A stretch of 42,259 nucleotides of DNA, taken from assembly GCA_902776365.1 (NCBI GenBank), contig CACYPU010000015.1, forward strand, positions 1 to 42,259, in the 5' to 3' direction. This document shows positions 380 through 42,259 of this stretch, one piece after another (the first letter of the stretch is position 1; every line of letters starts with the position of its first letter). The stretch comes from an uncultured Bacteroidota bacterium. Lineage in GTDB: Bacteria; Bacteroidota; Bacteroidia; Bacteroidales; P3. A program made the translations under genes and the position numbers. Under the pieces are notes generated by a model that worked only from the letters and a program-made list of their open reading frames with translations, made no database searches and was not told the origin of the DNA.

Positions 380-410
380 ATTCATTATTCATCACTCACC
401 ATTCATCATT
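380..410. repeat. 7-bp period tandem repeat before rimM
   Basis: ATTCATT, ATTCATC, ACTCACC, ATTCATC and ATT run head to tail and end one base before the rimM ATG. This is one of more than fifteen such arrays in the window. Confidence 0.75.
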
Positions 411-944
411 ATGGAAATAAAGGATTGTTTTTATCTGGGTAAGGTCACCAAGCCTTGGGGTGTCAAAGGCCAGATGGTTCTGTTCCTCGATGTCGACACA
501 CCGGAGGACTACGCCGAACTCGACTCCGCCTTTGTCGAGGTGAAGGGTAGGCTGGTGCCCCATTTCTTCCATGTCGACCAACTTAACGGCAACAAGGCCA
601 TCGTGACCTTTGAAGAGATTTCCGCCGACCAAGCCGCCGCACTCTGTGGTCACGAGATCTACCTGCCGCTCGACCTCCTGCCCAAACTCGAGGGGAATAA
701 GTTCTATTTCCATGAGGTGGTGGGTTTCAAGGTGATAGATAGCGAGAAAGGCGATATCGGTACTCTCGCTCAGGTCATCGACTACCCCGCCCAGCCCCTT
801 TTCCAAGTGATGAAAAACGGCGTGGAGATATTCATTCCTGTCATCGATGAGGTCATCGACAAGGTGGATCGTGAACAAAAAACACTATACATTACGGCAC
901 CTAAAGGCTTGATTGATTTGTATCTAGACAATATTAACAACTAG
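411..944 (+). CDS. rimM: Ribosome maturation factor RimM
   Basis: RimM binds bS19 and assists maturation of the 30S head domain. The protein starts MEIKDCFYLGKVTKPWG, matching the family N-terminus (D-C-F-Y-L-G, then K-P-x-G-V-K-G), and has 177 residues, the usual length. An upstream in-frame ATG at 354 would add 19 hydrophobic residues translated from the terminator and the heptamer repeat, so I set the start at the ATG at 411. The C-terminal half (FQVMKNGVEIFIPVIDEVI) is the PRC-barrel. It sits downstream of rpsP, the normal order. Confidence 0.9.
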   Translation: MEIKDCFYLGKVTKPWGVKGQMVLFLDVDTPEDYAELDSAFVEVKGRLVPHFFHVDQLNGNKAIVTFEEISADQAAALCGHEIYLPLDLLPKLEGNKFYFHEVVGFKVIDSEKGDIGTLAQVIDYPAQPLFQVMKNGVEIFIPVIDEVIDKVDREQKTLYITAPKGLIDLYLDNINN

Positions 945-983
945 TGTTGAAATGTTTTTTCCCTTTAGTTCGTGGAAAATACC

Positions 984-991
984 TATTTTTG
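984..991 (+). promoter_or_regulatory. -7 box for the dksA-like gene
   Basis: TATTTTTG fits the Bacteroidota -7 consensus TAnnTTTG and lies 24 bases before the ATG at 1015. No clear TTTG is seen at the -33 position; the region there is a T-rich run (954-960). Confidence 0.6.
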
Positions 992-1014
992 CACTTTGAA
1001 AAACACGAAGAGCC

Positions 1015-2743: not shown

Positions 2744-2747
2744 TGCT

Positions 2748-4439
2748 TTATTTGGTTTCCTTCCCGATCACAGGTATGGCGTCGATGAGCGTACGTGTGT
2801 AGTCGGTCTGAGGATGGGCGAAGAGTTCGTCGGGGGTGCCTTGTTCCACGATTTTGCCTTTTTGCATCACCATAATGCGGTCGGAGAGGAATTTTACCAC
2901 ACTGAGGTCGTGGGTGATGAAGAGGTAGGTGTAATGGTAGCGTCGCTTGAGGTCGTTGAGGAGATTGAGCACCTGGGCTTGCACGCTGACGTCGAGGGCC
3001 GAAACGCTCTCGTCGCACACTACCAACTCGGGCTGCAGGATAAGGGCCCGCGCGATGCACACCCGCTGCCGCTGCCCGCCGCTGAGTTCATGTGGATAGC
3101 GGCTGTACCAGTCGGGCTGCAATCCCACCTGTTGCATCAATTCAAGAACATGGTCGCGTTCCTCTTTCCACTTTCCGCTCTTCACTTTATGAACCCGCAA
3201 GGGTTCGCTTATGGCCTCCCCGATGGTAATTCTCGGGTTTAGCGAGGAGTAGGGGTCTTGGAAGATAATCTGCAGTTTGGGGCGCAAGGCACGCATCTGG
3301 CGGCGGGAGAGGGTGTCGAACGCCTGGCCACGATAGAGGATACTGCCGTCGCTATGGTCTATCAGGCGCAGCAGGGCACGGCCGAGTGTCGTCTTACCAC
3401 AGCCGCTCTCGCCCACCAGTCCTAGCGTCTCGCCCTCGCGGATGTCGAAGCTGACGCCATCGACACCCTTTAACGTCTGCAACGGCTTGCCGAAGAGGCT
3501 CTTCTTCAGGGTGTAGGTGACATCGAGGTTGCGAACTTCGATGAGTGGCTGAATGGCAGAGTGGCAGAGTGGCAGAGTGGTAGAATACTTAGTCACCTTG
3601 TCACTTGGTAACTTGTTCCCTTCTAAAAATTCCTCCACCGTCGGCAATCTCTCGGGTCTGCTGTCCATCGGTGGGCGGCAGGCCAGAAGGCCTTGGGTGT
3701 AAGCTTCTTGTGGATGATGCAGGATGTCGTTGGCAGGACCTTGCTCCACCATGTGGCCGCGGTACATCACCAGAATGTCGTCGGCAATCTGGCTGATGAC
3801 ACCGAGGTCGTGGGTGATGAAGATGATGCTGATACCGTGTTTCTTCTGTAGCGTTTTCAGAAGGTCGAGGATGGTCTTCTGCACCGTTACGTCGAGGGCC
3901 GTGGTGGGCTCGTCGGCGATGAGGATGTCGGGGTGGTTGATGAGAGCCATGGCAATCATCACGCGCTGCTTTTGACCGCCACTGATTTCGTGGGGGTAGC
4001 TGTCGAAAATTTTCTCAGGCCTTGGCAGGAGCACCTCTTTGAACAGTTCTAATACTTTTGTCCTTTCACTCCCTTTCACTCCATTATGAGCCCGTAGCAT
4101 CTCCATCACCTGTGCCCCGCATTTCTGCACGGGGTTGAGGCTGGTCATGGGCTCTTGGAAGATCATGCTGATGCGCTGTCCACGGACGGCTCGCAGCTGC
4201 TCCTCGTCGAGGGTCAACAGGTCGGTGCCGTCGAGGAGTGCGCTGCCGCTGACGGAGGCGTTTTTGGGCAGCAAGCCCATCAGTGCCAGCGAGCTGACAC
4301 TTTTGCCGCTGCCGCTCTCGCCCACGATGCCCAGCGTCTTACCTCGTTGGAGGCTGTAACTCAACCCCTCTACCACTGTCCGCCCGCCAAAAGCGATGGT
4401 GAGGTCCTTTATTTCTAGGATGTTATTGTCTTTACTCAC
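2748..4439 (-). CDS. Fused dipeptide/oligopeptide ABC transporter ATPase (DppD-DppF type)
   Basis: 563 residues with two complete ABC modules. Module 1: Walker A GESGSGKS (40-47), signature SGGQKQR (153-159), Walker B DILIADEP (171-178). Module 2: Walker A GESGCGKT (343-350), signature SGGQRQR (453-459), Walker B ELVVCDES (471-478). The C-terminal stretches after each module (VEQGP/VEQGT, then [12 protein letters not shown] and [12 protein letters not shown]) are the oligopeptide-transporter extensions. It energises peptide import from the cytoplasmic face. No permease or binding-protein gene is adjacent. Three linkers (about residues 119-128, 288-300, 417-428) are encoded by short tandem repeats. 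The second Walker B reads DES rather than the usual DEP. Confidence 0.9.
3162..3189. repeat. 7-bp period repeat inside the ABC ATPase gene
   Basis: CTCTTTC, CACTTTC, CGCTCTT, CACTTTA on the + strand. It encodes [14 protein letters not shown] on the minus strand, at a family-variable position between the Q-loop region and the signature of module 2. Confidence 0.6.
3554..3615. repeat. 8-bp period repeat in the inter-module linker of the ABC ATPase gene
   Basis: Three exact TGGCAGAG units and a fourth TGGTAGAA (3554-3585), followed by GTCACCTT, GTCACTTG, GTAACTTG (3592-3615). It encodes the variable linker between the two ATPase modules. Confidence 0.75.
4061..4083. repeat. 10-bp period repeat inside the ABC ATPase gene
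   Basis: TCCTTTCACT, CCCTTTCACT, CCA. It encodes [11 protein letters not shown] in module 1, a loop that varies in the family. Confidence 0.55.
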
Positions 4440-10354: not shown

Positions 10355-11869
10355 ATGGGAAAGTGGAAAGTGATTGTGCTTTTCACTTTCCTCTTTTTAC
10401 TCTTTCCTGTCGCTCAGGGACAGAAACTGATAGAGTATTCTTCCGGCATGGGTTCGCGCGACCCTAACGACGGCAACATCTGGATTCTGTACCAAAGGGT
10501 GACGGCGCGTCATGAAGGAATGACGCTGCGCTCCGACTCGGCGCATTACAATACCAAAGAAAACAGCTTCACGGCATTCGGCGACATTATTATCCGCCTC
10601 TCCGACACCACGTTCATCTATGGCGACCGCCTCTTCTACGACGGCAACACACGTGTTGTCGATATCTGGGACGATACCGTACTCCTGATTGACGGACGCA
10701 CAGAGCTCCGCGCCGACCATATCACCTATGACCGCAACATCGAGACGGCCTCCTATCCCCATTGGGGCCACGCCGTCAGCGGTGAGCGCAGGCTCGATAG
10801 TCAGCAGGGCCAGTACAATGCCAGGCGGAAGGAGTTCTACATCTACAGCGCTGTGCAGCTCTCCGACACCAAGATGCGACTCCTCACGGACACGCTTATT
10901 TACAACACCGTGACAGAGGTGGCTCATTTTGAAAGCCCCACACGGATATATACCGACTCGGCATTCATCTACAGCGAATTGGGCGACTACAACACCTCCA
11001 GCCGCGAGGCTACCTCATTCCTCGCCTCTCATGTCAACAACCAAGGTCGCACTATCGACAGCGACACGCTCTATTACCACGACACCCTCCGCTATGGTAA
11101 GGCTCGCGGTCATGTGCGCATCTTCGACTCGGTGAACAATATCACCTGTACAGGCCGCTACGGCGAGACCCATCAGGCCGACGGTTTTTCCTTCGTTACC
11201 GACAGCGCCCTGGTGGTCTTCGTCGACGAAGGCGATTCGGTCTTCCTGCATGCCGACACCGTCTATGTGACCACCGACAGCACCGACCACCTGCAGACCG
11301 TGCGGGCCAACTACAAGGTCAAGGTCTACCGTTGGGACGCCCAGGCCATGTGCGACTCCGCTTTCTACTCGGCCACCGATTCCCTCCTCTCGCTCTACCG
11401 CGAGCCGGTGCTTTGGTACGAACACTACCAGTGCCAGGCCGACACCATCGAATTGAAACATGACACCTCAGGTGTCCGACAGGCCTGGCTACGCAGCTCA
11501 TGCTTTGGCATGCAGCAGGTCGACCTGGAGAAGTTCAATCAACTGAAATGCAAGCAGGGTGTCGTCTACTTCGATAAGGGAGAACCGCTATATGCCGATA
11601 TGCTGGGCAATGCACAGATGGTGTTCTACATCACCGAGGAAGACAGCAGCTCCAATCCGACGCTGGTGGGCGTCAATGCCGGCACGGGTACCGACATGCG
11701 GATTTATTTTGACACTGCACGGGCTCCGTCGAGGGTGGTTACCTACGACAAGCCCGACATGAAGACCTACCCAGTCATGCTGCTGCCTAACGAATGGAGA
11801 CGTATGCAGGGCTTCCAGTGGCTCCCGCAACGACGTCCGAGACGTCCCGAGGACGTTTTCGTATGGTGA
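10355..11869 (+). CDS. OstA/LptA-like periplasmic protein
   Basis: 504 residues. The ATG at 10355 gives a clean signal peptide (MGKWKVIVLFTFLFLLFPVAQG); the GTG at 10328 would only add a short polar extension. The mature protein is a run of beta-jellyroll repeats of the OstA/LptA type, seen as recurring D-[ST]-x-x-Y and G-x-V/A-x-x-x-D units such as MTLRSDSAHYNTKENSFTAF and RELRADHITYDRN-like segments. LptA-like proteins bridge the periplasm and carry lipopolysaccharide to the outer membrane; the Bacteroidota OstA-like proteins are longer than classical LptA. It is 45 bp after gldJ and before the grpE operon terminator. Confidence 0.75.
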   Translation: MGKWKVIVLFTFLFLLFPVAQGQKLIEYSSGMGSRDPNDGNIWILYQRVTARHEGMTLRSDSAHYNTKENSFTAFGDIIIRLSDTTFIYGDRLFYDGNTRVVDIWDDTVLLIDGRTELRADHITYDRNIETASYPHWGHAVSGERRLDSQQGQYNARRKEFYIYSAVQLSDTKMRLLTDTLIYNTVTEVAHFESPTRIYTDSAFIYSELGDYNTSSREATSFLASHVNNQGRTIDSDTLYYHDTLRYGKARGHVRIFDSVNNITCTGRYGETHQADGFSFVTDSALVVFVDEGDSVFLHADTVYVTTDSTDHLQTVRANYKVKVYRWDAQAMCDSAFYSATDSLLSLYREPVLWYEHYQCQADTIELKHDTSGVRQAWLRSSCFGMQQVDLEKFNQLKCKQGVVYFDKGEPLYADMLGNAQMVFYITEEDSSSNPTLVGVNAGTGTDMRIYFDTARAPSRVVTYDKPDMKTYPVMLLPNEWRRMQGFQWLPQRRPRRPEDVFVW

Positions 11870-13679: not shown

Positions 13680-13680
13680 A

Positions 13681-13704
13681 ATGTGTTAATGCGTTAATGT
13701 GTTA
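13681..13704. repeat. 8-bp period repeat between dnaJ and the DUF2851 gene
   Basis: ATGTGTTA, ATGCGTTA, ATGTGTTA, ending 4 bp before the next ATG. Confidence 0.7.
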
Positions 13705-13708: not shown

Positions 13709-14998
13709 ATGACCGAGGCGTTCCTACATTATATCTGGCAACACCAGATGCTTGGCACTGGGCTGACCACCACCGATGGCCAGCCTGTTGTCGTCCATCG
13801 CCCCGGTGAACTCAACCGCGATGCGGGACCCGATTTCTTCAACGCCAGGGTCTCCGTCGGCGGTGTCGAATGGGCTGGAAATATCGAACTCCATCTCCGC
13901 TCGTCCGACTGGAAACAGCACCATCACTCCTCCGACAAGGCCTACAACAGCATTATCCTTCATGTTGTCTATGAGCACGATGGCCCCATCGTCATGGAGA
14001 ACGGCAAGGAGCCTGTCACCCTCGAACTCAAGCCTTTCATCCATCCCTCGTTGGTGGCCAACTACGATGCCCTCATGACCCCCTGTGACCCGCAGACGGT
14101 GCCTTGTGTGCGCCGCCTGCCTGCGGTGACACCTTTCCTCGTCCACTCTTTCCTCGACCGTCTGGCTGTCGAACGCATCGAATCCAAGTCCGAGGTGGTG
14201 CGCCGTCTGCTCGACGAAAGCTGTGGCAATTGGGAGAAGACATGCTACTGGCTCATGGCACACTATTTCGGCGGGAAGGTCAACGCTTTGCCTTTCGAGC
14301 TGGTGGCCAAAGCCACCGACCCCCGTTTCCTGGCCCGCTGGAAAGACAATCCCCACCGCATCGAGGCCCTGCTGATGGGACAGGCTGGATTCCTCGAGGG
14401 CTATTTCGAGGACGATTACCCTCGGCGGCTGCAGGCCGACTATGAAGCCCTTCGCACCGGAGCCTACCTTGTCCCCATCGACAACTACCTCTGGCGCTTC
14501 TTCCGCATCCGCCCCTCGGCATTCCCCACCATCCGCCTCAGCCAGTTCGCCAACCTGCTCGCATCCTCCTCCAACCTCTTCGCCACACTCCTCGAAATCA
14601 CAGACGTGAAAGAGATGGAGAAACTCTTCAACTGCCGGGCTGACGACTACTGGAACACCCACTACCATTTCGACCAACCCACAGAGCGCTCTTCTGTCAA
14701 GCGTGTGGGATGCATGCAGGCCGACTCGCTGATTATCAACGCCTGGATACCGTTGCTCTTCGTCTACGGCGAGGTCCATGGACAGCAGCGGTACAAGGAC
14801 CAGGCTCTCGGCCTCCTGCAGCAGCTCTCCGCCGAGGACAACAGCATCGTCCGCCGTTTCGTCCCTGCTGGCCTCACGCCCGAGAACGCCGCCCAGTCGC
14901 AAGCCCTCATCCAGCTCTACAACAACTACTGCTCCTCCCGCCGCTGCCTCGACTGCCATATCGGCCACGCCATCATAAAAACCCCTCAAACCCCTTAA
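13709..14998 (+). CDS. DUF2851 family protein
   Basis: 429 residues. It begins MTEAFLHYIWQHQML and continues with GLTTTDGQPVVVHRPGELN, DAGPDFFNARV and WAGNIELHLRSSDW, the conserved N-terminal blocks of this widespread but uncharacterised Bacteroidota family. The N-terminal D-A-G-P-D-F and E-x-H pattern is reminiscent of nuclease-like folds, but I would not assign a reaction. The C-terminus has a cysteine pair (SRRCLDCHIGH). The stop codon lies inside the 9-bp repeat array that leads into murF-alr. No signal peptide, so probably cytoplasmic. Confidence 0.8.
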   Translation: MTEAFLHYIWQHQMLGTGLTTTDGQPVVVHRPGELNRDAGPDFFNARVSVGGVEWAGNIELHLRSSDWKQHHHSSDKAYNSIILHVVYEHDGPIVMENGKEPVTLELKPFIHPSLVANYDALMTPCDPQTVPCVRRLPAVTPFLVHSFLDRLAVERIESKSEVVRRLLDESCGNWEKTCYWLMAHYFGGKVNALPFELVAKATDPRFLARWKDNPHRIEALLMGQAGFLEGYFEDDYPRRLQADYEALRTGAYLVPIDNYLWRFFRIRPSAFPTIRLSQFANLLASSSNLFATLLEITDVKEMEKLFNCRADDYWNTHYHFDQPTERSSVKRVGCMQADSLIINAWIPLLFVYGEVHGQQRYKDQALGLLQQLSAEDNSIVRRFVPAGLTPENAAQSQALIQLYNNYCSSRRCLDCHIGHAIIKTPQTP

Positions 14999-15050
14999 AC
15001 CTTTTAAACCTCTTAAACCTTTCAAACCTCTTAAACCTTTCAAACCTTTC
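14979..15050. repeat. Eight tandem 9-bp units between the DUF2851 gene and murF-alr
   Basis: Consensus AAACCTYTY, eight contiguous units without a gap: AAACCCCTC, AAACCCCTT, AAACCTTTT, AAACCTCTT, AAACCTTTC, AAACCTCTT, AAACCTTTC, AAACCTTTC. The array contains the DUF2851 stop codon and ends one base before the murF-alr ATG. Its frame is open into murF-alr (would read NLLNLSNLLNLS). Confidence 0.9.
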
Positions 15051-15051: not shown

Positions 15052-17550
15052 ATGAAAGCATCAGAAATCGCTTCCGTCATAAAATGCTCCTCCGCGAGTG
15101 TCAGGCGTCCCGACGACGCTATCCTTCATCTCCTCAACGACAGCCGCACCTTCTCCGAGGCCGACGGCACCCTCTTCTTCGCCATCCCCACCAAGCGTAA
15201 CTCCGGTTGTCGCTATATCGACGGCCTCTACCAGCGCGGTGTGCGCAACTTCGTGGTGCCTGCCGACTTCGCCGCCGACTACCACGATGCCAACCTCTGG
15301 CGTGTCGACGACGTCCTCCTGGCCCTCCAGCGTGTCGCCGCCGCCCATCGCCAGCAGTTCTCCATCCCCGTGGTGGGCATCACCGGAAGCAACGGCAAGA
15401 CCATCGTCAAGGATTGGCTCGTGCAGCTCCTCTCCACCGAGCATTGCATCGCCTCCAGCCCCAAGAGCTATAACTCGCAGATTGGCGTGCCGCTCTCCGT
15501 CTGGCAGATGAGCCCTGAGCACGATATGGCGGTCTTCGAGGCCGGCATCTCGGAGGTAGGGGAGATGACGCGTCTGCAGAATATCATACAACCCACTATC
15601 GGTATCTTTACCAATATCGGCCACGCCCACGACGAGAACTTCCTCACCCGCCAGCAGAAAGTAGCCGAGAAGCTCCAGCTCTTCACCCATTGCGACGTTC
15701 TCATCTACTCCACCGACCACAAGGAAATCCATAACGTGATTTCCGAAATCGAGAGCTTCCGACACCTCAACCGCTTCACTTGGGGTTCCTCGTCCGATAA
15801 TGCCGTGCAGCTCCTCTCCACCACCGTTACCGACCACAGCACCCACCTCGACATCGCCTATCACCTTTCACCTCTCACCTCTCACCTTTCACCTTTCTCC
15901 GTCACCATACCTTTCGTTGACCGCGCCTCGCAGGAGAATGTCATGCACTGCATCGCCCTCATGCTCTACCTAGGCTATGCCCCCGAGGCCATCGCCGCCC
16001 GCTGTGCTCAGCTCACCTCCGTTGAGATGCGTCTCGAGATGAACGAGGCCGTCAACAACTGCCTCCTCATCAACGACAGCTACAGCCTCGATTTCAACTC
16101 CCTCTCCATCGCCCTCGACTACCTCCAGTATGAGCATCAGCACTTCCGTAAGACCCTTATCATTAGCGATTTCTTGCAGACAGGTATGCCCGACAGCGAG
16201 CTCTACTCCCAGGTAGCGCAGCTGGCTTTGCAGCGCGGCATCTCGCGTCTCATCGCCATCGGGCCTGCCCTCAGCCACAACCGCAACTGCTTCGTCGGCA
16301 TCGAGACGCTCTTCTTCGACTCCACCGATCAGTTCCTGCAGGACTACGACACCAACTCTTTCCAGAACGAGACCATCCTCCTCAAAGGTGCCCGCATCTT
16401 CGGCTTCGAGAAGATAGCCAAGCTCCTCCAGCGCAAGTCGCACGAGACCATCATGGAGGTCAACCTCGGGTCTATGATACACAACCTCAACTACTACCGT
16501 TCGCTTATCCGCCCCGAGACCAAGCTCATGGCTATGGTCAAGGCGGCCTCCTACGGTGCCGGCAAGGTCGAGGTGGCCAGCGCCCTCCAGTTCTGTCATG
16601 TCGACTACTTCACCGTGGCCTATGCCGACGAAGGCGTCGACCTGCGCCGCAATGGCATCAGCGTCCCCATCATGGTGATGAATCCCGAGGAAGCCTCTTT
16701 CGACGACATCATCAAATACAACCTCGAGCCCGATATCTACTCCTTCCGCATCTTGGAACTTTTCGCCGCCCGTGTGCGCCTCCTGGGAGGCCGCAGGGCC
16801 ATCCATGTGGAGTTCGACACCGGCATGCACCGCCTGGGCTTCTCCGAGGGCGACATACTCGACCTTGGCCGCAAGCTCAACCAATGCGCCGACTGCCTCG
16901 AGGTGAAGAGCATCTTCTCCCACCTGGCCTGTGCCGACGACCCCGCGATGGACGACTTCACCCGCGGGCAGATCGACCGCTTCCGTGCTTGGAGCGACCG
17001 CCTCGACAACCTCATCGAGCGTCCCGCCGGCGTCAAGATACTCCATCACATCCTCAACTCCTCCGGCATCGCCCGCTTCCCCGAAGCCCAGATGGATATG
17101 GTTCGTCTCGGCATCGGCCTCTATGGTGTGGCTCCTGAGCCCGAGGTGCAGGCCCAGCTCCGCCAGGTGTCGCGTCTCGTCACCCGCATTTCGCAGCTCA
17201 AGGACATCGCCGAGGGCGAATCCGTGGGTTACAATCGCCGCTGGATAGCCTCACGCCCCTCGCGCATCGCCATCATTCCCATCGGCTATGCCGACGGCTT
17301 CAACCGTCACCTCGGCTACGAGCAGGGCCATGTGATTATCGCCGGCCACGAGGTGCCCATCATCGGCAGCATCTGCATGGACATGTGCTTCGTCGACGTC
17401 ACGGGTGTGGAATGCCGCGAAGGCGACCCCGTCGTCCTCTTCGGCGAAGGCGACCTCCTGCAGCGCAACGCCGCCGCCGCCGGCACCATCCCCTACGAGA
17501 TGCTCACCTCCGTCTCCCCCCGCGTCAAACGCGTCTACTTCCAGGAGTAG
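15052..17550 (+). CDS. Bifunctional MurF-like ligase/alanine racemase
   Basis: 832 residues. N-terminal half is MurF-like: substrate region LLNDSRTFSEADGTLFFAI, then P-loop GITGSNGKT (109-117) and the central domain. The C-terminal half is alanine racemase with the PLP lysine in MAMVKAASYGAG (K497), HVEFDTGMHRLGF, and the catalytic-tyrosine region SVGYNRRW, then IPIGYADGFNRHLG and GSICMDMCFVDV. It supplies D-alanine and joins D-Ala-D-Ala to the peptidoglycan precursor. This fusion is typical of Bacteroidota. The ATG at 15052 is chosen because homology starts there; upstream in-frame codons are the repeat. A 7-bp repeat at 15861-15895 inserts HLSPLTSHLSPFS into the MurF-like half. A stand-alone murF is also present at 25594-27069. 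Confidence 0.92.
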   Translation: MKASEIASVIKCSSASVRRPDDAILHLLNDSRTFSEADGTLFFAIPTKRNSGCRYIDGLYQRGVRNFVVPADFAADYHDANLWRVDDVLLALQRVAAAHRQQFSIPVVGITGSNGKTIVKDWLVQLLSTEHCIASSPKSYNSQIGVPLSVWQMSPEHDMAVFEAGISEVGEMTRLQNIIQPTIGIFTNIGHAHDENFLTRQQKVAEKLQLFTHCDVLIYSTDHKEIHNVISEIESFRHLNRFTWGSSSDNAVQLLSTTVTDHSTHLDIAYHLSPLTSHLSPFSVTIPFVDRASQENVMHCIALMLYLGYAPEAIAARCAQLTSVEMRLEMNEAVNNCLLINDSYSLDFNSLSIALDYLQYEHQHFRKTLIISDFLQTGMPDSELYSQVAQLALQRGISRLIAIGPALSHNRNCFVGIETLFFDSTDQFLQDYDTNSFQNETILLKGARIFGFEKIAKLLQRKSHETIMEVNLGSMIHNLNYYRSLIRPETKLMAMVKAASYGAGKVEVASALQFCHVDYFTVAYADEGVDLRRNGISVPIMVMNPEEASFDDIIKYNLEPDIYSFRILELFAARVRLLGGRRAIHVEFDTGMHRLGFSEGDILDLGRKLNQCADCLEVKSIFSHLACADDPAMDDFTRGQIDRFRAWSDRLDNLIERPAGVKILHHILNSSGIARFPEAQMDMVRLGIGLYGVAPEPEVQAQLRQVSRLVTRISQLKDIAEGESVGYNRRWIASRPSRIAIIPIGYADGFNRHLGYEQGHVIIAGHEVPIIGSICMDMCFVDVTGVECREGDPVVLFGEGDLLQRNAAAAGTIPYEMLTSVSPRVKRVYFQE
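15861..15895. repeat. 7-bp period repeat inside murF-alr
   Basis: TCACCTT, TCACCTC, TCACCTC, TCACCTT, TCACCTT in frame; three units encode the heptapeptide HLSPLTS. The same peptide is encoded by the array at 23451-23484. Confidence 0.85.
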
Positions 17551-17658
17551 GCTAACAGGTACCAGTCTCGTGTTTCACCGGGAATGACCCCCGTAAGGGG
17601 TGGCGAATAACGCTGAATCGAATCAGAAGTCTCTGATTGTAAGTGTTTTCTAGTGCTG

Positions 17659-17741
17659 TTCTTTCATTGTTCTTTCATTGTTCTTTCATTGTTTTACCAT
17701 TTTAATGGTTAAACAATGGTTAAACAATGGTTGAAATGATG
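17659..17741. repeat. Two 11-bp period arrays and a hairpin at the convergent gene ends
   Basis: TTCTTTCATTG three times (17659-17691), then TTAAACAATGG twice plus TTGAAATGATG (17709-17741). CATTGTTTTACCATT (17687-17701) and AATGGTTAAACAATG (17704-17718) pair over 14 of 15 positions with a 2-base loop. The hairpin lies between murF-alr and the convergent secreted-protein gene and may terminate transcription from both sides. Confidence 0.8.
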
Positions 17742-20859: not shown

Positions 20860-20887
20860 AGATAATAGTTAACAGATAACAGATAAT
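20860..20887. repeat. 7-bp period repeat before lon
   Basis: AGATAAT, AGTTAAC, AGATAAC, AGATAAT, ending 6 bp before the lon ATG at 20894. Confidence 0.75.
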
Positions 20888-23356: not shown

Positions 23357-23385
23357 GAGTTAAGAATTAAGAGTTAAGAATTAAG
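23351..23385. repeat. 7-bp period repeat at the end of lon
   Basis: AGTTAAG, AGTTAAG, AATTAAG, AGTTAAG, AATTAAG; the lon stop codon is in the first unit, and the next gene starts 7 bases after the array. Confidence 0.85.
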
Positions 23386-23391
23386 AATAAC

Positions 23392-24912
23392 ATGAAACAG
23401 ACTCGTTTAAAATATTATTTGTCCGTTCACCCCCTCCTTATTCTATTCTTTTTTACCTTTCACCTCTCACCTCTCACCTCTCTCGCTCAGTCTTCCGACT
23501 TTATTGTCCTCCGCCAGCAGCGCATCACTCTCCCACGCCAGGTGAGCAGCGTCTCCTATCTCGACAATAACTTCTATTGCTATGCCTCTGGAGTGCTGTT
23601 GAAAGCACAGCGCCAGGTTGACTCGCAACTCTCTTCTTTCAACTTTCAACTCAAGGCCGACACTGTTTTTGTCAAGCTTGACGAGAACATCGACTATGTG
23701 GTTCGTCACCCCTCCACGGGCGACTTGTATTACACCACCCTCGACAAGAAAGGCCGCTCCTATCTCTATCGCAGTACGGTGACTGACAACGGGAAACAGA
23801 AAATCTCGCAGGTGAAAATGGACGGTGGATTCCTCGATAAGGGAATGTGCGTCTATCATCCTACCTTCACCGACGATGGTTCTCTGATGGTTTTCTCTTC
23901 TTCTCGTGAGGACCGGAATAGGGGGAGCCTCGACCTTTGGTATTCCCGCTACAATGGCGGTGAATGGTCCGACCCCGTCAATCTGGGGCCCCGCATCAAC
24001 ACTTCGGGCGATGAAGTCAGCCCCTTCCTCTATCACGACTGCCTGCTTTTTGCTTCCAGCGGTAATGCCGATGACCACGGCCATTTCACCCTGTATGCCA
24101 CACGGCTCGTTTCCAACCCTGTTGGTGACACCGTAGGCCGCCGCCAGATTGGCCGATGCCTCGTTCAGCGGTTGCCAGAGCCGTTCAATGTAGTGGGCAC
24201 CGACAACCTGGGTCTCTCTTACGACTCTTTCGCCGGCTGTGGCTACTGGATATCCAACCGCGACGATGTTGCTGGCCGTCAGCTCTACTCCTTCTCCGGC
24301 ACCCTTGAGAGCCTCTTGCTTTGGGGCACTGTCTCCGACAAGTTCGACCATCCCGTGGCAGGGGTGACGGTTACCGCCTCGCAGCAAGGAAAGGTCCTCT
24401 GCAGCGCTGTTTCCGATGCGACCGGACACTACAGCCTGTATCTTCACTGTGGCCAGACTTATGAACTCTCCTTCAGTAAGCCTGATTATTTCGTCACCAC
24501 CGAGCCTCTCGATGCCCGTCAAGGTGGTGAAGGCTACCTCATCACCGAACAGCAGCACAATGTGAAGTTGCACGGACTGCCTGTAGGACAGCGTTTTTAT
24601 TACGACGACCTGTTTGCTCCTGATGCCGCTGTCGAACTCAGTGACCGGGGTAGGGAAGAGCTTGTACCCCTGGTACAGTTCCTTGTCGATAACCCCGGGA
24701 AGAAGGTCTCTATGACGCTCCTCAACGACCTCACCGATGACCCTTCTTTCAACAGCCTCCTTACGGACCGACGTATTCTCACGCTCGAAAAATACCTTCG
24801 GAAGGTTCTTCCGGAGACTATCGAATTTAACATTTCGAACGCATGCAATGGTGTGGAAAAATGTTCTACGGCTACGGGGTCGTCTATTTTAACGGTGTTG
24901 ATAGACAATTGA
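23392..24912 (+). CDS. PorE-like envelope protein (beta-propeller, carboxypeptidase-regulatory and OmpA-like domains)
   Basis: 506 residues with a signal peptide ending near TSLAQS. Residues about 60-290 carry PD40/WD40-like blades (YHPTFTDDGSLMVFSSSRED, LDLWYSRYNGGEWSDPVNLG). Residues about 310-375 resemble a carboxypeptidase regulatory domain (VAGVTVTASQQGKVLCSAVSD, ATGHYSLYLHCGQTYELSF). The last 110 or so are OmpA-like (YYDDLFAPDAAVELSDRGREELVPL), with a weakened peptidoglycan-binding motif. This order matches PorE of the Porphyromonas type IX system without its N-terminal TPR part. A heptamer repeat (23451-23484) encodes part of the signal peptide; a shorter one (23637-23650) follows. Confidence 0.6.
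   Translation: MKQTRLKYYLSVHPLLILFFFTFHLSPLTSLAQSSDFIVLRQQRITLPRQVSSVSYLDNNFYCYASGVLLKAQRQVDSQLSSFNFQLKADTVFVKLDENIDYVVRHPSTGDLYYTTLDKKGRSYLYRSTVTDNGKQKISQVKMDGGFLDKGMCVYHPTFTDDGSLMVFSSSREDRNRGSLDLWYSRYNGGEWSDPVNLGPRINTSGDEVSPFLYHDCLLFASSGNADDHGHFTLYATRLVSNPVGDTVGRRQIGRCLVQRLPEPFNVVGTDNLGLSYDSFAGCGYWISNRDDVAGRQLYSFSGTLESLLLWGTVSDKFDHPVAGVTVTASQQGKVLCSAVSDATGHYSLYLHCGQTYELSFSKPDYFVTTEPLDARQGGEGYLITEQQHNVKLHGLPVGQRFYYDDLFAPDAAVELSDRGREELVPLVQFLVDNPGKKVSMTLLNDLTDDPSFNSLLTDRRILTLEKYLRKVLPETIEFNISNACNGVEKCSTATGSSILTVLIDN
23451..23484. repeat. 7-bp period repeat inside a signal-peptide coding region
   Basis: TTTTACC, TTTCACC, TCTCACC, TCTCACC, TCTC. It encodes FTFHLSPLTSL, which makes up the end of the hydrophobic core and the cleavage region of the PorE-like protein. 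Confidence 0.85.
23637..23650. repeat. Short 7-bp repeat inside the PorE-like gene
   Basis: TTTCAAC twice, followed by TCAAGG; encodes SFNFQLK. Only two units, so it would be weak evidence by itself. Confidence 0.45.
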
Positions 24913-25593: not shown

Positions 25594-27069
25594 TTATAAT
25601 TCTTCTTCGAGTGTCCACAGTTTGTTGGTGTTGGAACCTTTGATGAGGATGGTGGCTCCAGACAAGGGGTTTCCCTGTAGCCAGATGCGCACAGCCTCGG
25701 TGTCGGGGAAGAGAATATATTCAGTGGGTAGTGGGTAGTGGGTAGTGGGTAGCATTTTCGCGTCCCATTCGGGGCCCACCAGCAGGACGCGGTCGAGATG
25801 GCAGGAGGCAAGTTGTTCGACCACGCGCTTATGTTCTTTGTGTTCCTCGTGCCCCAGTTCGTGCATACCGCCGATGATGGCCATTTTTTTAGTGGGTAGC
25901 TGGGAGTGGGTAGTGGGTAGTTGGGAAAATGATTCGATGGCGGCGGCCATGGAGGAGGGATTGGCGTTGTAGCAGTCGAGGTAGAGGTGGTTGCCGCGGG
26001 CGGTTTCCTTGTATTCGGAGCGCTGATTCGAGGGGATGTATTCCTCGATGGCCTCCTTGATGTCCCAGGGTTCCACGTTGAAGTGCAGGCCTACGGCGAC
26101 GGCGGCCATGCAGTTGTCCAAATTGTAGGCGCCCAAAAGGTGCGTGTGGACGTTGTAGACGTTGTCGCCCACCTCGAAATAGAAGTGGAGATAGGGATTG
26201 CTTGAGTCGGTGACCAAGGTTCCGCGGACGTCGGCTTCCTGCGAGCGACCGTATGTCAGCATGCTGAGTGGTGTTTTCTCGATGGTGGTGGGGATGAAGG
26301 CAGGATTGTCGGGCTGGTAGGCAGGAATCACCGACCGCAGACCCGGGATTGTCGCCAGCTTCTCGGCCTCGTGCATTAGGCGCTCGTTGTCGGCGTTGAC
26401 GAAGATAAGTCCGTGTTTGCCCTTTGGAGGGTTGGCTCCACTGAGGTCGCCACCCGCCAAATGGCGGTAGAGTTCGGTCTTGGTGTGTACCACGCCCTCG
26501 AAGGAACCGAAGCCCTCGAGGTGGGCGCGGCCGACATTTGTGATGAGTCCACAGTCGGGGTCGGCGATGCTACATAGGAATTCAATTTCGCCGGGATGGT
26601 TGGCGCCCATCTCCACGATGGAGATTTCTGTACCTTTGGGGATGGCGAGCAGCGTAAGCGGTACTCCCAGATGGTTGTTGAAGTTGCCTTTGGTTGCCGA
26701 GGTCTTGTATCGCTTGGCCAGTACGGCGTGAACCAATTCCTTAGTGGTGGTTTTGCCGTTGGTGCCCGTGATACCGATGACGGGGTGCTCGAGATGGCGA
26801 CGGTGCTCGCGTGCCAGCTCCTGCAGCGTATTCAGCACATTGGGTACTCCAATGATTCTTTCATCATCTTTCCATTTCCCGCTTTCTGCTTTCCACTTCT
26901 CATCAACAACGCACAGTGCCGCCCCTTGCTCGAGTGCTTTGGGTGCGAAGGCGTTGCCGTCGAAATGCTCGCCTTTGAATGCGAAGAAGATGCATCCGGG
27001 GGTGATATTGCGCGAATCGGAGGTCACCGTGTGCGACTGAAGATATGTTTTGTAAAGGCTGTCGATCAT
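25594..27069 (-). CDS. murF: UDP-N-acetylmuramoyl-tripeptide--D-alanyl-D-alanine ligase
   Basis: 491 residues. It adds D-Ala-D-Ala to the UDP-MurNAc-tripeptide in the cytoplasm. Visible blocks: VTSDSRNITPGCIFFAFKG (N-terminal), P-loop GITGTNGKTTTK (99-110), GNFNNHLGVPLTLL, VEMGANHPGEI, GRAHLEGFGSFEGV, and the C-terminal DCYNANPSSMAAAIESF. Three short tandem repeats are translated in frame: residues about 58-69 (KWKAESGKWKDD), 382-393 (QLPTTHSQLPTK) and 440-449 (LPTTHYPLPT). All fall in variable loops of the family. It leads a two-gene minus-strand operon. I find no clear promoter box upstream. Confidence 0.93.
   Translation of the reverse strand: MIDSLYKTYLQSHTVTSDSRNITPGCIFFAFKGEHFDGNAFAPKALEQGAALCVVDEKWKAESGKWKDDERIIGVPNVLNTLQELAREHRRHLEHPVIGITGTNGKTTTKELVHAVLAKRYKTSATKGNFNNHLGVPLTLLAIPKGTEISIVEMGANHPGEIEFLCSIADPDCGLITNVGRAHLEGFGSFEGVVHTKTELYRHLAGGDLSGANPPKGKHGLIFVNADNERLMHEAEKLATIPGLRSVIPAYQPDNPAFIPTTIEKTPLSMLTYGRSQEADVRGTLVTDSSNPYLHFYFEVGDNVYNVHTHLLGAYNLDNCMAAVAVGLHFNVEPWDIKEAIEEYIPSNQRSEYKETARGNHLYLDCYNANPSSMAAAIESFSQLPTTHSQLPTKKMAIIGGMHELGHEEHKEHKRVVEQLASCHLDRVLLVGPEWDAKMLPTTHYPLPTEYILFPDTEAVRIWLQGNPLSGATILIKGSNTNKLWTLEEEL
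25724..25751. repeat. 7-bp period repeat inside murF (first)
   Basis: Four exact GTGGGTA units on the + strand, encoding LPTTHYPLPT on the minus strand. Confidence 0.9.
25891..25925. repeat. 7-bp period repeat inside murF (second)
   Basis: AGTGGGT, AGCTGGG, AGTGGGT, AGTGGGT, AGTTGGG on the + strand, encoding QLPTTHSQLPT on the minus strand. Confidence 0.9.
26867..26901. repeat. 7-bp period repeat inside murF (third)
   Basis: TCTTTCC, ATTTCCC, GCTTTCT, GCTTTCC, ACTTCTC; encodes KWKAESGKWKDD on the minus strand. Confidence 0.7.
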
Positions 27070-37661: not shown

Positions 37662-37683
37662 TTTGTTTTGTCATTTCACGCTG

Positions 37684-37714: not shown

Positions 37715-37728
37715 AAAAAATGTTGTCA

Positions 37729-37830: not shown

Positions 37831-37866
37831 GATGAATTAGAGCGTCAAGCTCAATATGTCTTTGTC

Positions 37867-37918
37867 TATTTCTACGTTTTATGTCATCATCATTTTATCA
37901 ATTTCATGCTGTAAAGAT
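37867..37918. repeat. 52-bp direct repeat, copy B
   Basis: Same orientation as copy A; two C-to-T differences near the end. The two copies lie 805 bp apart and flank the YoeB module plus the hairpin region. Confidence 0.9.
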
Positions 37919-37958
37919 ACTCATATTTTTCTAAATTCTGAAAATAATTTTATTATAT

Positions 37959-37992
37959 TCAAGAAAAGTTGTATTTTTGCAACATTTCTTGA
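37959..37992 (+). promoter_or_regulatory. abiE promoter with operator arms around the -7 box
   Basis: TCAAGAAAAGTTG (37959-37971), TATTTTTG (37972-37979, exact -7 consensus) and CAACATTTCTTGA (37980-37992). The arms are inverted repeats, 12 of 13 matching. The AbiEi start lies 10 bases further on. AbiEi antitoxins are known to repress their own promoter through inverted repeats. Confidence 0.8.
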
Positions 37993-38002
37993 TTGAAATA
38001 AA

Positions 38003-39433: not shown

Positions 39434-40468
39434 ATGAAACATACGAAGGCCTTTATACTCCTTGCTTTTGCGGCATTTCTGCTGTTTGCCTGCAGCAAGG
39501 AGGAACCGACGCCGGAGCCGCAACCGACGGCTGTGCCGCAGATTATCCTCGACACCGACATCGCCAGTTCGACCGACGACCTTTTCGCCATGCAGCTGCT
39601 CTACCGCAACGCCGCTCAGGGACGCTGCAAGCTGCTGGGTGTGGTGGTGGACCGCATGGGCGACACCAACGCCGCCGTCGCCGACCTGATGAACAATTAC
39701 TACGGCTTCCCGACGCTGCCCATAGCGCTGGAGCGCAACGGCACCTACGAGCGCTTCGGTTATATCAACTACACCCCCATCGCTCAGGCCACCGACAGCA
39801 ACGGCAACCTGCTGTTCGCCCGCACCTACAGCGACTATTCGTCGCTCCCCGACGGCTACGTCCTCTACCGCCAACTGCTGGCCAATGCCCCCGACGGCAG
39901 CGTCACCATCATGCTCACCGGCATCGCTTCGACGATAGCCAACCTCCTCACTTCCGGTGCCGACCAGTATTCGCCGCTGACGGGCGTGGAGCTGGTGCGC
40001 CGCAAGGTGAAGCGGCTCTACTTCATGGCCACCAAGCTGGAGCCTGGCAGCGAGCAGGAGGTCAGTCCCGGATACAATATGATGATGCACCCCGAGGCAG
40101 CAAGTACGCTGCTGGAAATGTGGCCCGACGACGTCGACGTCATCATCTCGCCCAGTGCGCCAGGCAACATGGTGGAATATGCACCCGAACAGGTGATTAG
40201 CGACATCTACTGGACGGATGTCCATCCGATAAAACAGATCTACATGCGGTTCAACTGCAACACCGGGCAGCGAATGTGGGACCCCATGATTCCGCTGCAA
40301 GAGATTGAAGGCGACAGCCTGATAGCCCTCTCGCCCCACGGACATTTAAGTTTCAACGCCAACAAGGTCAGCTTCACCTCCGACCCCGACGGCAACTTCC
40401 GCTATCAAATCGCTGGCGACGAGGCGTGGGCACAGCGCATGTTGAATCTGATACGTGCATCCAACTGA
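39434..40468 (+). CDS. Nucleoside-hydrolase-like lipoprotein
   Basis: 344 residues. Lipoprotein signal with lipobox LLFAC (Cys20), then a short Pro/Glu linker. ILDTDIASSTDDLFAM (D40, D42, D48, D49) corresponds to the calcium-binding DTD(x)nDD of inosine-uridine nucleoside hydrolases. TIMLTGIASTIANLL fits the second core block. The canonical active-site histidine region is not obvious, so a divergent or non-canonical substrate is possible. The lipid anchor suggests extracytoplasmic nucleoside or ribosyl hydrolysis. It starts 2 bp after abiEii but has core-like G/C-rich codons, marking the edge of the island. Confidence 0.65.
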   Translation: MKHTKAFILLAFAAFLLFACSKEEPTPEPQPTAVPQIILDTDIASSTDDLFAMQLLYRNAAQGRCKLLGVVVDRMGDTNAAVADLMNNYYGFPTLPIALERNGTYERFGYINYTPIAQATDSNGNLLFARTYSDYSSLPDGYVLYRQLLANAPDGSVTIMLTGIASTIANLLTSGADQYSPLTGVELVRRKVKRLYFMATKLEPGSEQEVSPGYNMMMHPEAASTLLEMWPDDVDVIISPSAPGNMVEYAPEQVISDIYWTDVHPIKQIYMRFNCNTGQRMWDPMIPLQEIEGDSLIALSPHGHLSFNANKVSFTSDPDGNFRYQIAGDEAWAQRMLNLIRASN

Positions 40469-40530
40469 TAAGTCATTCACCAGCGGCAGCAAGACCATTG
40501 TAATCTAGTGGAAAATAAGTAGATAATGAA

Positions 40531-40560
40531 AGAGGCTGGCACATTTTTGTGCCTGCCTCT
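40531..40560. terminator. Hairpin between convergent genes
   Basis: AGAGGCTGGCAC (40531-40542), loop ATTTTT, GTGCCTGCCTCT (40549-40560): 11 of 12 pairs with one T-T mismatch. No downstream T-run, so termination efficiency is uncertain. Confidence 0.55.
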
Positions 40561-40584
40561 CGGTATAAGACGTCGATGGGCACC

Positions 40585-42259
40585 CTATTCAGCGCGGAAC
40601 GACGTGAGGTCGGCCTCGGTGAAGTGCATGACGTAGTAGGACTTGGCGCAGACGTCTTCCTCGGTCATGCGGACGTAGACGTTGGCGCTCTTCTCGAAGA
40701 GTTCGGGGGCGCGGCTGGCGTCGTCGATGATAAGGAGGCTCATGATGATTTCGCAGGTCATGTCGTAGAGGCGGCGGGCCAGGAAGTCGTGCACCTCCTC
40801 GTTGTTGGCCTCTTTGACGTAGGCCACGGCCTTCTCGTAGAGGTCGATGAGCGGATCGATGCGGTCAAGCAGCGTAGCCATTTCACCTTTCACCTTTGAC
40901 CTTTCACCTTCCATCATGTCGCGCATCACCTGCAGGTAGGTGCCGTTGGTGACGTAGCGGATGGCAGCGACGACCTGCAGCTGGGTGGTGCCCTCGTAGA
41001 TGCTGAAGATGCGGGCATCGCGGTAGAGGCGCTGACTCTTGTACTCCATGATGAAGCCCGAGCCGCCGTGGATGCTGATGGCGTCGTAGGCGTTCTGGCT
41101 GGCGTACTCGCTGTTCATGCCCTTGGCGATGGGGGTGAAGGCGTCGGCCAGACGGCTGTAGGTCTTCATCTCGGTGCGCTCTTCGGGGGTGAGCTTGCGG
41201 TCGCGGGCGATGTCCTCGAGGCATTTGTAGAGGTCGACGTAGCGGGCGGTCTGGTAGAGCAGGCTGCGGCCGGCGTCGAGCTTGGCTTTCATGCGGGAAA
41301 GCATATCATATACCGCGGGGAAGTTGATGATTTTCTGGCCGAACTGGGCACGCTCGCGGGCGTAGGCCAGTCCTTCGTTGTAGGCTTCCTGCTCCACGCC
41401 GACGCTCTGGGCGGCGATGCCGAGGCGGGCGCCGTTCATCAGGGCCATCACATATTTGATGAGGCCCAGCTTGCGGTCGCCGCAGAGCTCCGCTTTGGCG
41501 TTCTTGTAGGTGAGCTCGCAGGTGGGGCTGCCGTGGATGCCGAGCTTGTGCTCGATGTGGCGCACGTCGACGCCGCCGTTGCGCTTGTCGTAGATGAACA
41601 TCGACAGGCCGCGGCCGTCCTTGGTGCCCTCCTCGCTGCGGGCAAGGACGAGGTGGATGTCCGAATCACCGTTGGTGATGAAGCGCTTCACGCCGTTGAG
41701 GCGCCAGCAGTTCTCCTTCTCGTCGAAGGTGGCCTTGAGCATCACACGCTGCAGGTCGCTGCCGGCGTCGGGCTCGGTGAGGTCCATACTCATGGTCTCG
41801 CCGGCACAGATGCGCGGGATGTATTTCTGGCGCTGCTCCTCGCTGCCGAACTCGTAGAGGGTGTCGATGCAGCTCTGCAGGCTCCAGATGTTCTGGAAGC
41901 CGGCGTCGGAGGCGCTGATGATTTCGCTCATCATGCTGAAGATGACGTTCGGCAGGTTCAATCCGCCGTAGCGGCGCGGCATGGAGACACCGTAGAGGCC
42001 GGCCTTGCGGGTCACCTCGAGGTTCTCCTTGGTCTTCGAGGCGTAAATCATGCGGTTGTTTTCCAGGTGCGGTCCTTCGAGGTCGACGCTCTCCGAGTTG
42101 GGCTCGATGACGTTGGCGGCCACATCGCCGGTGATCTCGAGGATGCGGCGGTAGTTCTCGATGGTGTCCTCGAAGTCCACGGGGGCATAGTCGATGCCCT
42201 TCTGGGCGTCCTCGTAATTCTTTTCGCGAAGCTCGACCAGGCGCTTCATTTGCGGATGC
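40585..42259 (-). CDS. Acyl-CoA dehydrogenase, 5' end outside the window
   Basis: At least 557 codons; the frame is open to the window edge, and the family in Bacteroidota starts about 20 residues before the Met at 42249, so the N-terminus is cut. Visible: YAPVDFEDTIENYRRILE, GETMSMDLTEPDAGSDLQ (FAD/acyl-CoA motif), WRLNGVKRFITNGDSD, GIHGSPTCELTYKNA, SIHGGSGFIMEY, and FSIYEGTTQLQ with the likely catalytic Glu. It oxidises an acyl-CoA to the 2-enoyl-CoA with FAD and is longer than the classical enzymes (C-terminal extension as in FadE-like/AcdA3 types). A 7-bp repeat (40881-40908) encodes GERSKVKGEMA near the C-terminus. Confidence 0.85.
   Translation of the reverse strand, partial: HPQMKRLVELREKNYEDAQKGIDYAPVDFEDTIENYRRILEITGDVAANVIEPNSESVDLEGPHLENNRMIYASKTKENLEVTRKAGLYGVSMPRRYGGLNLPNVIFSMMSEIISASDAGFQNIWSLQSCIDTLYEFGSEEQRQKYIPRICAGETMSMDLTEPDAGSDLQRVMLKATFDEKENCWRLNGVKRFITNGDSDIHLVLARSEEGTKDGRGLSMFIYDKRNGGVDVRHIEHKLGIHGSPTCELTYKNAKAELCGDRKLGLIKYVMALMNGARLGIAAQSVGVEQEAYNEGLAYARERAQFGQKIINFPAVYDMLSRMKAKLDAGRSLLYQTARYVDLYKCLEDIARDRKLTPEERTEMKTYSRLADAFTPIAKGMNSEYASQNAYDAISIHGGSGFIMEYKSQRLYRDARIFSIYEGTTQLQVVAAIRYVTNGTYLQVMRDMMEGERSKVKGEMATLLDRIDPLIDLYEKAVAYVKEANNEEVHDFLARRLYDMTCEIIMSLLIIDDASRAPELFEKSANVYVRMTEEDVCAKSYYVMHFTEADLTSFRAE
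40881..40908. repeat. 7-bp period repeat inside the acyl-CoA dehydrogenase gene
   Basis: TTTCACC, TTTCACC, TTTGACC, TTTCACC on the + strand; encodes GERSKVKGEMA on the minus strand in a variable linker. Confidence 0.85.

Follow-up and report, generated by a model that had tools for sequence, protein, structure and literature searches.

Heptamer-dominated short tandem repeats dispersed in a Bacteroidales genome: shared words and word replacement at the same site

Introduction

The 42,259-nt contig CACYPU010000015.1 of assembly GCA_902776365.1 (hereafter the window, always taken at its full length) belongs, as contig C15, to a draft genome of 2.23 Mb, G000, whose named relatives are rumen Bacteroidales (e.g., RUG14564, RUG153 and "bacterium P3"). 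This contig contains numerous short tandem repeats, mostly with 7-bp units, that are scattered between genes and within protein-coding sequences, and the question raised by these arrays is whether each of them grew from its own local sequence or whether short tracts are copied, transposed or written into many loci. The presence of dispersed arrays with 7–11-bp units, noticed in a first-pass annotation of the window, is confirmed here. These arrays do not look like independent slippage scars because they fall into few unit clusters, have a similar tract length and, in up to a third of cases, possess inverted partners, with a fixed polarity in operon gaps.

Results

Abundance and periodicity of the arrays

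Arrays were detected with an ungapped scan for lag-p self-similarity (+1 for a match, −3 for a mismatch; score cut-offs 9, 11 and 13), and the counts in the window were compared with 25 dinucleotide shuffles in 1-kb blocks and 25 codon shuffles (scores 7 and 8 were used without shuffles). At a score of at least 9, the window contains 17 arrays, compared with a mean of 0.80 (maximum 4) in the dinucleotide shuffles and 1.72 in the codon shuffles; the corresponding numbers are 10 against 0.08 (maximum 1) and 0.28 at a score of at least 11, and 9 against 0.00 and 0.04 at a score of at least 13. In contig C1 of the same genome (472 kb), the only one for which an order-5 Markov null was simulated, 103 period-7 arrays score at least 13, with none in each of the 3 simulations. 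The arrays are far more common than in shuffled sequence of the same composition, and both comparisons support the proposal of the first-pass annotation that a non-chance process operates in the core genome. The predominance of 7 bp that it had noted is equally clear: at the cut-off of 13, periods 8–11 are represented in C1 by 11–23 arrays each and periods 2–6 by 0–1 each.

The ungapped scan recovered 15 of the 17 arrays originally listed for the window, 10 of them with scores of at least 11 and five weaker ones (3159, 13680, 20870, 23636 and 25905) with scores of 7–10; the remaining two, 380–410 and 26867–26901, were missed by the scan. Tandem Repeats Finder (TRF), the second detector applied to the window, lists the former of these two and all five weaker arrays (Table 1). 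Two entries had to be corrected: the extension of the array at 3554 over positions 3581–3615 is outside any array, and the 11-bp arrays at 17659–17691 and 17709–17741, although both were found, are the arms of one predicted hairpin. In agreement with the original list, the AT-rich island at 34.2–39.4 kb harbors no array with a score of at least 9. This observation is weak alone; AT-rich 2-kb windows (GC below 0.46) contain 2 arrays in 26 windows compared with 289 in 390 windows elsewhere. The island itself (34200–39400) has a GC content of 0.36–0.46 in 1-kb steps and includes a zinc-ribbon protein, a lipoprotein signal and an open reading frame without a Pfam match.

A small dictionary of reused words

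The genome-wide set consists of 339 arrays with periods 7–11 from about 834–835 kb of G000, which form 66 unit families. The 190 period-7 arrays fall into only 16 unit clusters (with 43, 38, 30, 25 and fewer members), compared with a mean of 72.9 clusters, the largest with at most 13 members, in 20 draws of local random 7-mers. The same words recur over extended stretches: the 23-mer CTACCCACTACCCACTACCCACT, which contains the ACCCACT word seen in MurF at 25723, matches G000 28 times, overlaps included, at 18 places and not once when read backwards, and identical whole arrays are present at up to 5 loci. On their G-poor strand, the units contain 3499 C and 513 G, compared with 3612 and 2277 in random segments. 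The median tract length is 31, 31, 37, 35 and 34 bp for periods 7 to 11, respectively, such that the copy number drops from 4.4 to 3.1. For several words, the phase at which arrays begin or end is non-random (p ≤ 1e-4 for both start and end of the ACCCACT arrays), and 9 of the 11 GTTCTTTCATT arrays share one start phase.

Placement relative to genes

According to a simple gene caller, 195 of the 339 arrays are intergenic although non-coding DNA accounts for only 125 of the 835 kb; the other 144 are in called coding sequence. Arrays cluster near gene ends, 83 of 147 being located within 15 nt of one, compared with 56.9 expected. The statement that arrays sit just before start codons or in coding loops is accurate for both locations, but in gaps between co-directional genes the position just behind a stop codon is even more common (62 arrays, compared with 26 just ahead of a start). 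Of the 129 coding arrays with periods 7, 8, 10 and 11, 103 leave the coding strand open, and 8 have words with stops on both strands, compared with 60 of 168 intergenic arrays. In the window, the arrays within genes for a peptide ABC transporter ATPase, a Mur-ligase/alanine-racemase fusion, MurF (three loops), a weakly PorE/OmpA-like protein and an acyl-CoA dehydrogenase contain no internal stops.

Inverted partners and hairpins

A search for partners within 300 bp of each array detects inverted copies for 80 of the 339 arrays when at least 14 of 16 positions are required to match, compared with 20 direct, 7 reversed and 10 complement copies and with 3 inverted copies in the flank of another family; at 13 of 16, the inverted partners number 109 against 34, 18, 24 and 9, respectively. 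In co-directional gaps, once arrays without a clear skew are excluded, 51 of the 62 arrays behind a stop have a G-rich coding strand and 21 of the 26 before a start a C-rich one. The partner of a G-rich array lies 3' of it in 20 of 23 cases and that of a C-rich array lies 5' in 21 of 21, so that on the operon RNA strand the G-rich arm is 5' and the C-rich arm 3'. The 11-bp hairpins have fixed boundaries, and recurrent cores between the arms are found in some families, e.g., CAAGACAA, which adjoins an array in 15 of its 32 occurrences in G000. A core common to all families, T[TG]CG[TC]CAGC, looked convincing by eye and failed against a reversed control: of its 151 occurrences in G000, G056 and G036, 18 are near arrays (reversed control, 6 of 88), and so are 0 of the 53 in G012, G023, G031 and G027. 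Hidden partners of the unpaired arrays were not detected either, the duplex energy of these arrays with their flanks being no better than that of shuffles (median z −0.12 and −0.28). Since two thirds of the arrays lack an inverted partner and none is hidden, the hairpin is not a general part of these arrays.

Three loci in C1 (40377, 225877 and 365893) share one layout, which combines GTCAGTG-type repeats with a TTTGCGTCAGCAT stretch and ATTTTC-type repeats. Inspection by eye of the locus at 40377 suggests a start codon and a signal peptide, which hints that entire signal-peptide regions are copied between genes.

Same site, different word

The relatives G056 and G036 are about 80% identical to G000 (mean DNA identity to G056, 80.5% for C1 and 83.2% for the window). 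The presence of arrays differs between these genomes, and so does the word. Of 243 arrays of G000, 67 could be placed in G056, where, at the loose cut-off of 9 used for counting swaps, 46 sites are array-free, 17 carry another unit and 4 the same unit; for G036, the 91 placed arrays include 51 array-free sites, 32 with another unit and 8 with the same unit. Site retention was counted at the stricter cut-off of 11, with a caveat on segment width. Coding sites keep an array in 8 of 28 cases in G056 (control 7 of 2349) and in 10 of 39 in G036 (control 35 of 2459); intergenic sites do so in 10 of 37 in G056 (control 3 of 46; p 0.012, the weakest of these comparisons) and in 21 of 51 in G036 (control 3 of 66). 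At C1 301432, one hairpin family in G000 is matched by another in G056. At the coding site 206875, TCAATTT repeats correspond to ACTTTCC repeats at unchanged length, and at 26639 the CATTCAA repeats of G000 correspond to degenerate CACCTST in G036 (unscored by the script) and to no repeat in G056, with the length almost unchanged.

Two closer pairs were also compared. G008 and G023 are 97% identical in MurF and 87% identical over 70 kb; of their 14 arrays, 6 are unplaceable and one poly-C run was excluded, and no clear array change is apparent among the indels of at least 7 bp. The poly-C run, about 22 C at approximately 28985–29007 of contig C34 of G008, corresponds to ordinary sequence in the relative and is probably an assembly error. 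Between G004 and RUG737 (99.2% identical over 10.5 kb), there are four indels, three of which involve 1–2 bases in or beside T runs; the fourth, the only one of at least 3 bp, is exactly one 11-bp array unit and represents a single event.

Distribution across genomes

Loads were calculated by adding up the arrays with periods 7–11 and scores of at least 13, so that one place may count twice. Per 100 kb, C1 has a load of 37, and C2 and the window have 21 each; among the relatives, it is 23 in G036, about 22 in G056, 18 in G012 and 15 over 28 loci of kin, compared with 4 in G031, 4.5 in G027 and 3.1 over 52 other Bacteroidota loci. Thus, the frequency is far from equal among genomes, as the first-pass annotation would have it. 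At a score of at least 12, each of the 26 kin loci L058–L083 contains at least one array (e.g., 3 arrays in the 12 kb of L073), and L084–L088 contain none. Over the 807 kb of the loci L088–L137, there are 26 arrays, and L096, L107, L114, L116, L119 and L126 hold at least two each; these six belong to Bacteroidaceae, Saprospiraceae, Chitinophagales and Bacteroidales, and their words differ locus by locus. Because other Bacteroidota loci carry 7–11-bp arrays with words of their own, the phenomenon may recur across the phylum.

The favored words are specific to the genome: ACCTTTC, AATTTTC and ACCCACT in G000, ACTTTCC in G056 and the 11-mer AATACTACCGT in G012. The pattern CTTTCANCTTTCANCTTTCA occurs 25 times in G000 and is present in 32 of the 99 genomes searched, G000 included; some genomes are also hit by its reversed control, as is expected if their arrays use a different word.

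Arrays of the window

The individual arrays and their counterparts in relatives are given in Table 1. MurF loops of kin carry further inserts, of the SNQAIKQ type in L058, L061 and L066 and of the form KVKGES ... HLSPLTSHLSP in L060. At 33715–33716, the window has about 164 bases fewer than G056, G036, G102, G139 and G002 (BLAST blocks of 87–96% identity break there); the window either has lost these bases or has an assembly gap here.

Table 1. Tandem repeat arrays of the window and the corresponding sites in related genomes
Position	Strand	Feature	Evidence	Relatives
379..410		Degenerate 7-bp CATTCAT array, up to the ATG of the RimM gene (called start 411)	TRF; Pfam RimM; missed by ungapped scan	
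3159..3188	-	Weak 7-bp TTCCACT array, in frame, peptide ABC transporter ATPase	Score 7; TRF	
3554..3580	-	8-bp array GAGTGGCA, in frame, peptide ABC transporter ATPase	Ungapped scan	ATTCTTC-type repeats in G036; no repeat in G056
4062..4082	-	10-bp array CCTTTCACTC, two copies, peptide ABC transporter ATPase gene	TRF, scan	
10358..10400	+	GGAAAGT repeat and complementary CACTTTCC stretch, signal-peptide-like coding region	Alignment; TRF 10358-10372	By eye, same in G056, G036, G002; absent in G102, G139, G115
13680..13704		8-bp array AATGTGTT, gap between DnaJ and DUF2851 genes	Score 9; TRF	By eye, GGTAAGGA-like repeats in G056, G036; other 7-bp repeats in G002; array-free in G102, G139, G115, where the two genes overlap (TGATG)
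14979..15050		9-bp array AAACCTCTT, gap behind DUF2851 gene	TRF, scan	By eye, CAATCAAG-type repeats in G036; none in G056
15861..15897	+	7-bp array CACCTTT/CACCTCT, in frame, Mur-ligase/alanine-racemase fusion (AYHLSPLTSHLSPF)	Alignment, Pfam	Tract only in the window; net +21 bp, in frame, vs all six aligned relatives
17657..17741		Predicted hairpin with 11-bp tandem arms, between convergent genes; arms TGTTCTTTCAT (17657-17693) and AATGGTTAAAC (17704-17732)	TRF, scan, RNA fold (17650-17750: -30.8 kcal/mol, z -5.25)	
20860..20886		7-bp array AGATAAC, 5' of Lon gene	Score 10; TRF, Pfam	By eye, GGTTAAC/GGTTAAA-type repeats in G056
23349..23388		7-bp array AGAGTTA/AGAATTA, between Lon and OmpA-like gene	TRF, scan	
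23455..23482	+	7-bp array ACCTCTC near N-terminus (TFHLSPLTSLAQ, signal-peptide-like by eye); gene weakly PorE/OmpA-like, below NCBIfam cut-off	Scan, annotation	10-bp array TCACTCCCTT in G056
23636..23651	+	7-bp CTTTCAA, 2.3 copies, in frame, PorE/OmpA-like gene (weak match)	Score 9; TRF	
25723..25752	-	7-bp array ACCCACT in MurF (LPTTHYPLPT)	Alignment, translation	Net +21 bp vs G056 and G036
25890..25921	-	Degenerate ACCCACT array, second MurF loop (QLPTTHSQLPTK)	Translation, alignment; TRF	Similar PTTHYPLPT in L078; several others insert-free
26867..26901	-	Degenerate ACTTTCC-type repeat in MurF, protein repeat EKWKAESGKWKD	Translation; missed by scan	6-residue insert, otherwise only in L063 (18 aligned sequences)
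40881..40910	-	7-bp array TTTCACC, in frame, acyl-CoA dehydrogenase (EGERSKVKGEM)	Pfam, translation	None in G056 or G036

Discussion

How the arrays may spread

The reuse of words, the similar tract length, the fixed ends in some families and the swaps at kept sites call for more than slippage, and beyond slippage, copying between loci is the best explanation, followed by transposition or templated writing. We give an even chance to a scheme in which these repeats are a dispersed, non-autonomous system dominated by heptamers that spreads by locus-to-locus copying, is resized by slippage and is filtered by selection. A small dictionary of G-poor words is reused at many unlinked loci, and under this scheme, tracts would be copied from one locus to another through short-patch copying, template switching at replication forks or gene conversion. 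The copied tracts would then be resized by strand slippage, of which one whole-unit change was observed, and would persist only where they are tolerated, i.e., at stop–start junctions, in signal peptides and in loops, in the strand that is free of stops. If tracts are copied again and again into these few permissive sites and are lost or replaced there, unit swaps would result.

Several observations weigh against this scheme. Because no insertion event was caught between near-identical genomes, we only infer that tracts are copied between loci. Most placed sites are array-free in the relatives, 27 of 39 intergenic and 19 of 28 coding sites in G056, and 27 of 52 and 24 of 39, respectively, in G036; the swap counts, resting on the loose cut-off, contain some that are doubtful, e.g., the conserved coding repeat at 191139, which was scored as "other". 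The length-preserving swaps at 206875 and 26639 look like overwriting rather than loss followed by insertion, and in the G008/G023 pair, inspection by eye of the 7 placed arrays shows 3 with the same word, 2 with another word and 2 reduced or gone. The uniformity of the arrays is also imperfect: tract length grows slightly with period (Spearman 0.31), the medians in G036, where few arrays exceed period 8, are 30, 27, 35, 28.5 and 43 bp, and some phase tests are not significant (e.g., 0.64 for the TTAATTC ends and 0.78 for the TTTCAAT ends). Furthermore, 26 of the 129 coding arrays contain a stop in the called strand, where the gene caller may be wrong, and the absence of inverted partners from two thirds of the arrays adds to these points.

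An explanation that dispenses with copying is purely local slippage, in which each array grows from its own seed, the 7-bp period reflects the footprint of the polymerase, and the words are alike only because those that are pyrimidine-rich, stop-free or hairpin-compatible are tolerated. The strong C-richness of the units on one strand, the retention of the word at 3 of the 7 placed arrays at 87% identity and the whole-unit change in the G004/RUG737 pair all conform to this possibility, and a heptamer excess together with the polymerase-footprint idea has been published (PMC4692102). Yet we consider it unlikely, given that the same words appear at many loci (up to the 23-mer at 18 places), that whole arrays are identical and boundary phases fixed in several families, that tract length is alike over all periods, that the dominant words are species-specific and that periods 2–6 are nearly absent. 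The simple, local slippage offered as one option in the first-pass annotation leaves the shared units at unlinked loci unexplained. A further reading, which we regard as rather improbable, invokes trans-acting machinery that would write tracts of about 31 bp at marked sites from a small, species-specific and changing dictionary of 7–11-nt words and overwrite the old tract. If such machinery exists, arrays at unlinked loci would change their word in concert, by the rewriting of short tracts and not by slippage.

Movement in trans by a transposase, with the arrays representing miniature palindromic elements of the REPIN/RAYT kind or the miniature inverted-repeat transposable element (MITE) kind and single arrays being half-elements or relics, is suggested by the hairpin pairs with recurrent cores in some families, by the fixed boundaries of the 11-bp hairpins and by the precedent of in-frame palindromes in Rickettsia genes. 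The unpaired two thirds of the arrays and the unconvincing common core make this improbable, and no target-site duplication was seen, the alignments at about 80% identity being too diverged to exclude one. Profile searches of 61 genomes for the Y1 transposase (PF01797) led us to reject a Y1/RAYT mover because the family does not track array load: it is absent from the array-bearing G009 (95% complete) and G008 (88%), drafts that may miss a contig, present in the array-poor G027 (3) and G031 (1), and represented by one weak match in G000. Templated synthesis, whereby a reverse transcriptase (RT) or another polymerase would copy a 7–11-nt template repeatedly into tracts of about 30 nt that are joined at breaks or forks, in the manner in which DRT10 and telomerase produce repeats, fits the narrow range of units, the similar tract length, the same-length overwriting by a new word and the species-specific dictionaries, and DRT10 shows that bacterial RTs are able to make tandem-repeat DNA (PMC12632851). 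This route seems quite improbable: in the same searches, RVT_1 (PF00078) has no match in the array-bearing G002 (98% complete), G022 (94%) and G009 (95%), and the only RT of G000 scores as the defence class UG24. An RT writer was rejected on these grounds, with the proviso that drafts may miss a contig and that other RT families may escape the profile. The protein in question, the sole RVT_1 match found in G000, is encoded on contig C3 (L287 11526–14906, minus strand) and consists of 1126 amino acids with RT and HD-CE domains; PADLOC assigns it to RT_UG24, a defence-associated RT (DRT). Finally, although the named kin records are metagenome-assembled genomes or uncultured-isolate assemblies and one C run in G008 looks artefactual, an assembly or binning artefact is almost certainly not the explanation, given the like pattern in independent RUG, RGIG and UBA assemblies, the window coding arrays without internal stops and the hundreds of loci in long contigs.

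Relation to known repeats

Short tandem heptamers dispersed in the genome are known from cyanobacteria as short tandemly repeated repetitive (STRR) sequences. As in STRR sequences and other simple sequence repeats with 6–9-bp units, the arrays described here show a 7-bp excess and enrichment outside coding sequence and near gene ends, and whole-unit length variation was found for one 11-bp unit at one locus in one pair of genomes. With regard to phase-variable simple sequence repeats, which turn surface genes on and off by shifting their reading frames, the coding arrays of the window are largely in core enzymes (MurF, the Mur-ligase/alanine-racemase fusion, the acyl-CoA dehydrogenase and the ABC transporter ATPase), and the words of coding arrays are mostly stop-free genome-wide. 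The remark in the first-pass annotation that no named class fits is not supported, heptamer arrays having been described in Xanthomonas and Nostoc (PMC4692102) and as TAACTGA repeats (PMC4679880). The G-rich heptamers GGGAATC of Xanthomonas and GGGGA(C/T)T of Nostoc are over-represented, mostly in four units, near gene ends and in some cases as inverted pairs, and mostly lie between corresponding genes when two related strains are compared, though their length and sequence vary; heptanucleotides of Calothrix are mentioned as well (PMC4692102). As portrayed in the passages of that article available to us, each is one G-rich, quadruplex-forming type of word with a strong non-coding bias, unlike the present lineage, which has many words with periods 7–11, many of them in frame in conserved enzymes, and where the word can change at a kept site. 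The TAACTGA direct repeats, patchily distributed in Beggiatoaceae, cyanobacteria and five Bacteroidetes, resemble the present arrays in being heptamers, mostly 5' of start codons, with 7-nt differences between related cyanobacterial strains, but consist of one word, according to the portions consulted (PMC4679880).

Palindromic in-frame insertions are tolerated in protein genes of Rickettsia, in the form of palindromic elements that are longer and lack tandem arms. The BrickBuilt MITE of Porphyromonas gingivalis is also from Bacteroidales and combines tandem repeats with inverted-repeat ends in a dispersed element; it differs, in the description drawn on here, by its 23-bp unit, always intergenic location, 19 copies, and leader and tail subunits (PMC4596501), compared with units of 7–11 bp and called coding locations for 144 of the 339 arrays in G000. 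MITEs have defined terminal inverted repeats and target-site duplications; inverted arms are present in up to a third of these arrays, and the empty sites at about 80% identity are too diverged for duplications to be read. REPINs, similarly, are inverted doublets in extragenic space that are predicted to form hairpins, but their definition, in the excerpt of PMC3116915 used here, does not include 7–11-bp tandem arms, and the Y1 transposase does not track the load in the present genomes. In the part of PMC4060949 that was available, there is nothing on heptamers. Among the matches listed in the open-access literature, there is no paper on the repeats of this lineage, nor any many-word system with these traits. 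What is new is the many-word dictionary, the similar tract length for all periods, the presence of tracts in frame within core enzymes and the replacement of one word by another at a kept site.

Implications

The published accounts of heptamer spread, in the sections at hand, offer the footprint of the polymerase or an unknown route of transfer (PMC4692102, PMC4679880). The lineage analyzed here has a large set of words, hundreds of tracts, protein insertions that stay in frame and sister species that differ in the word at one site, so that local growth, copying between loci and templated synthesis lead to different predictions for close strains. For the organisms themselves, the arrays seem to be continually supplying new signal-peptide sequence and, in essential enzymes, new loops.

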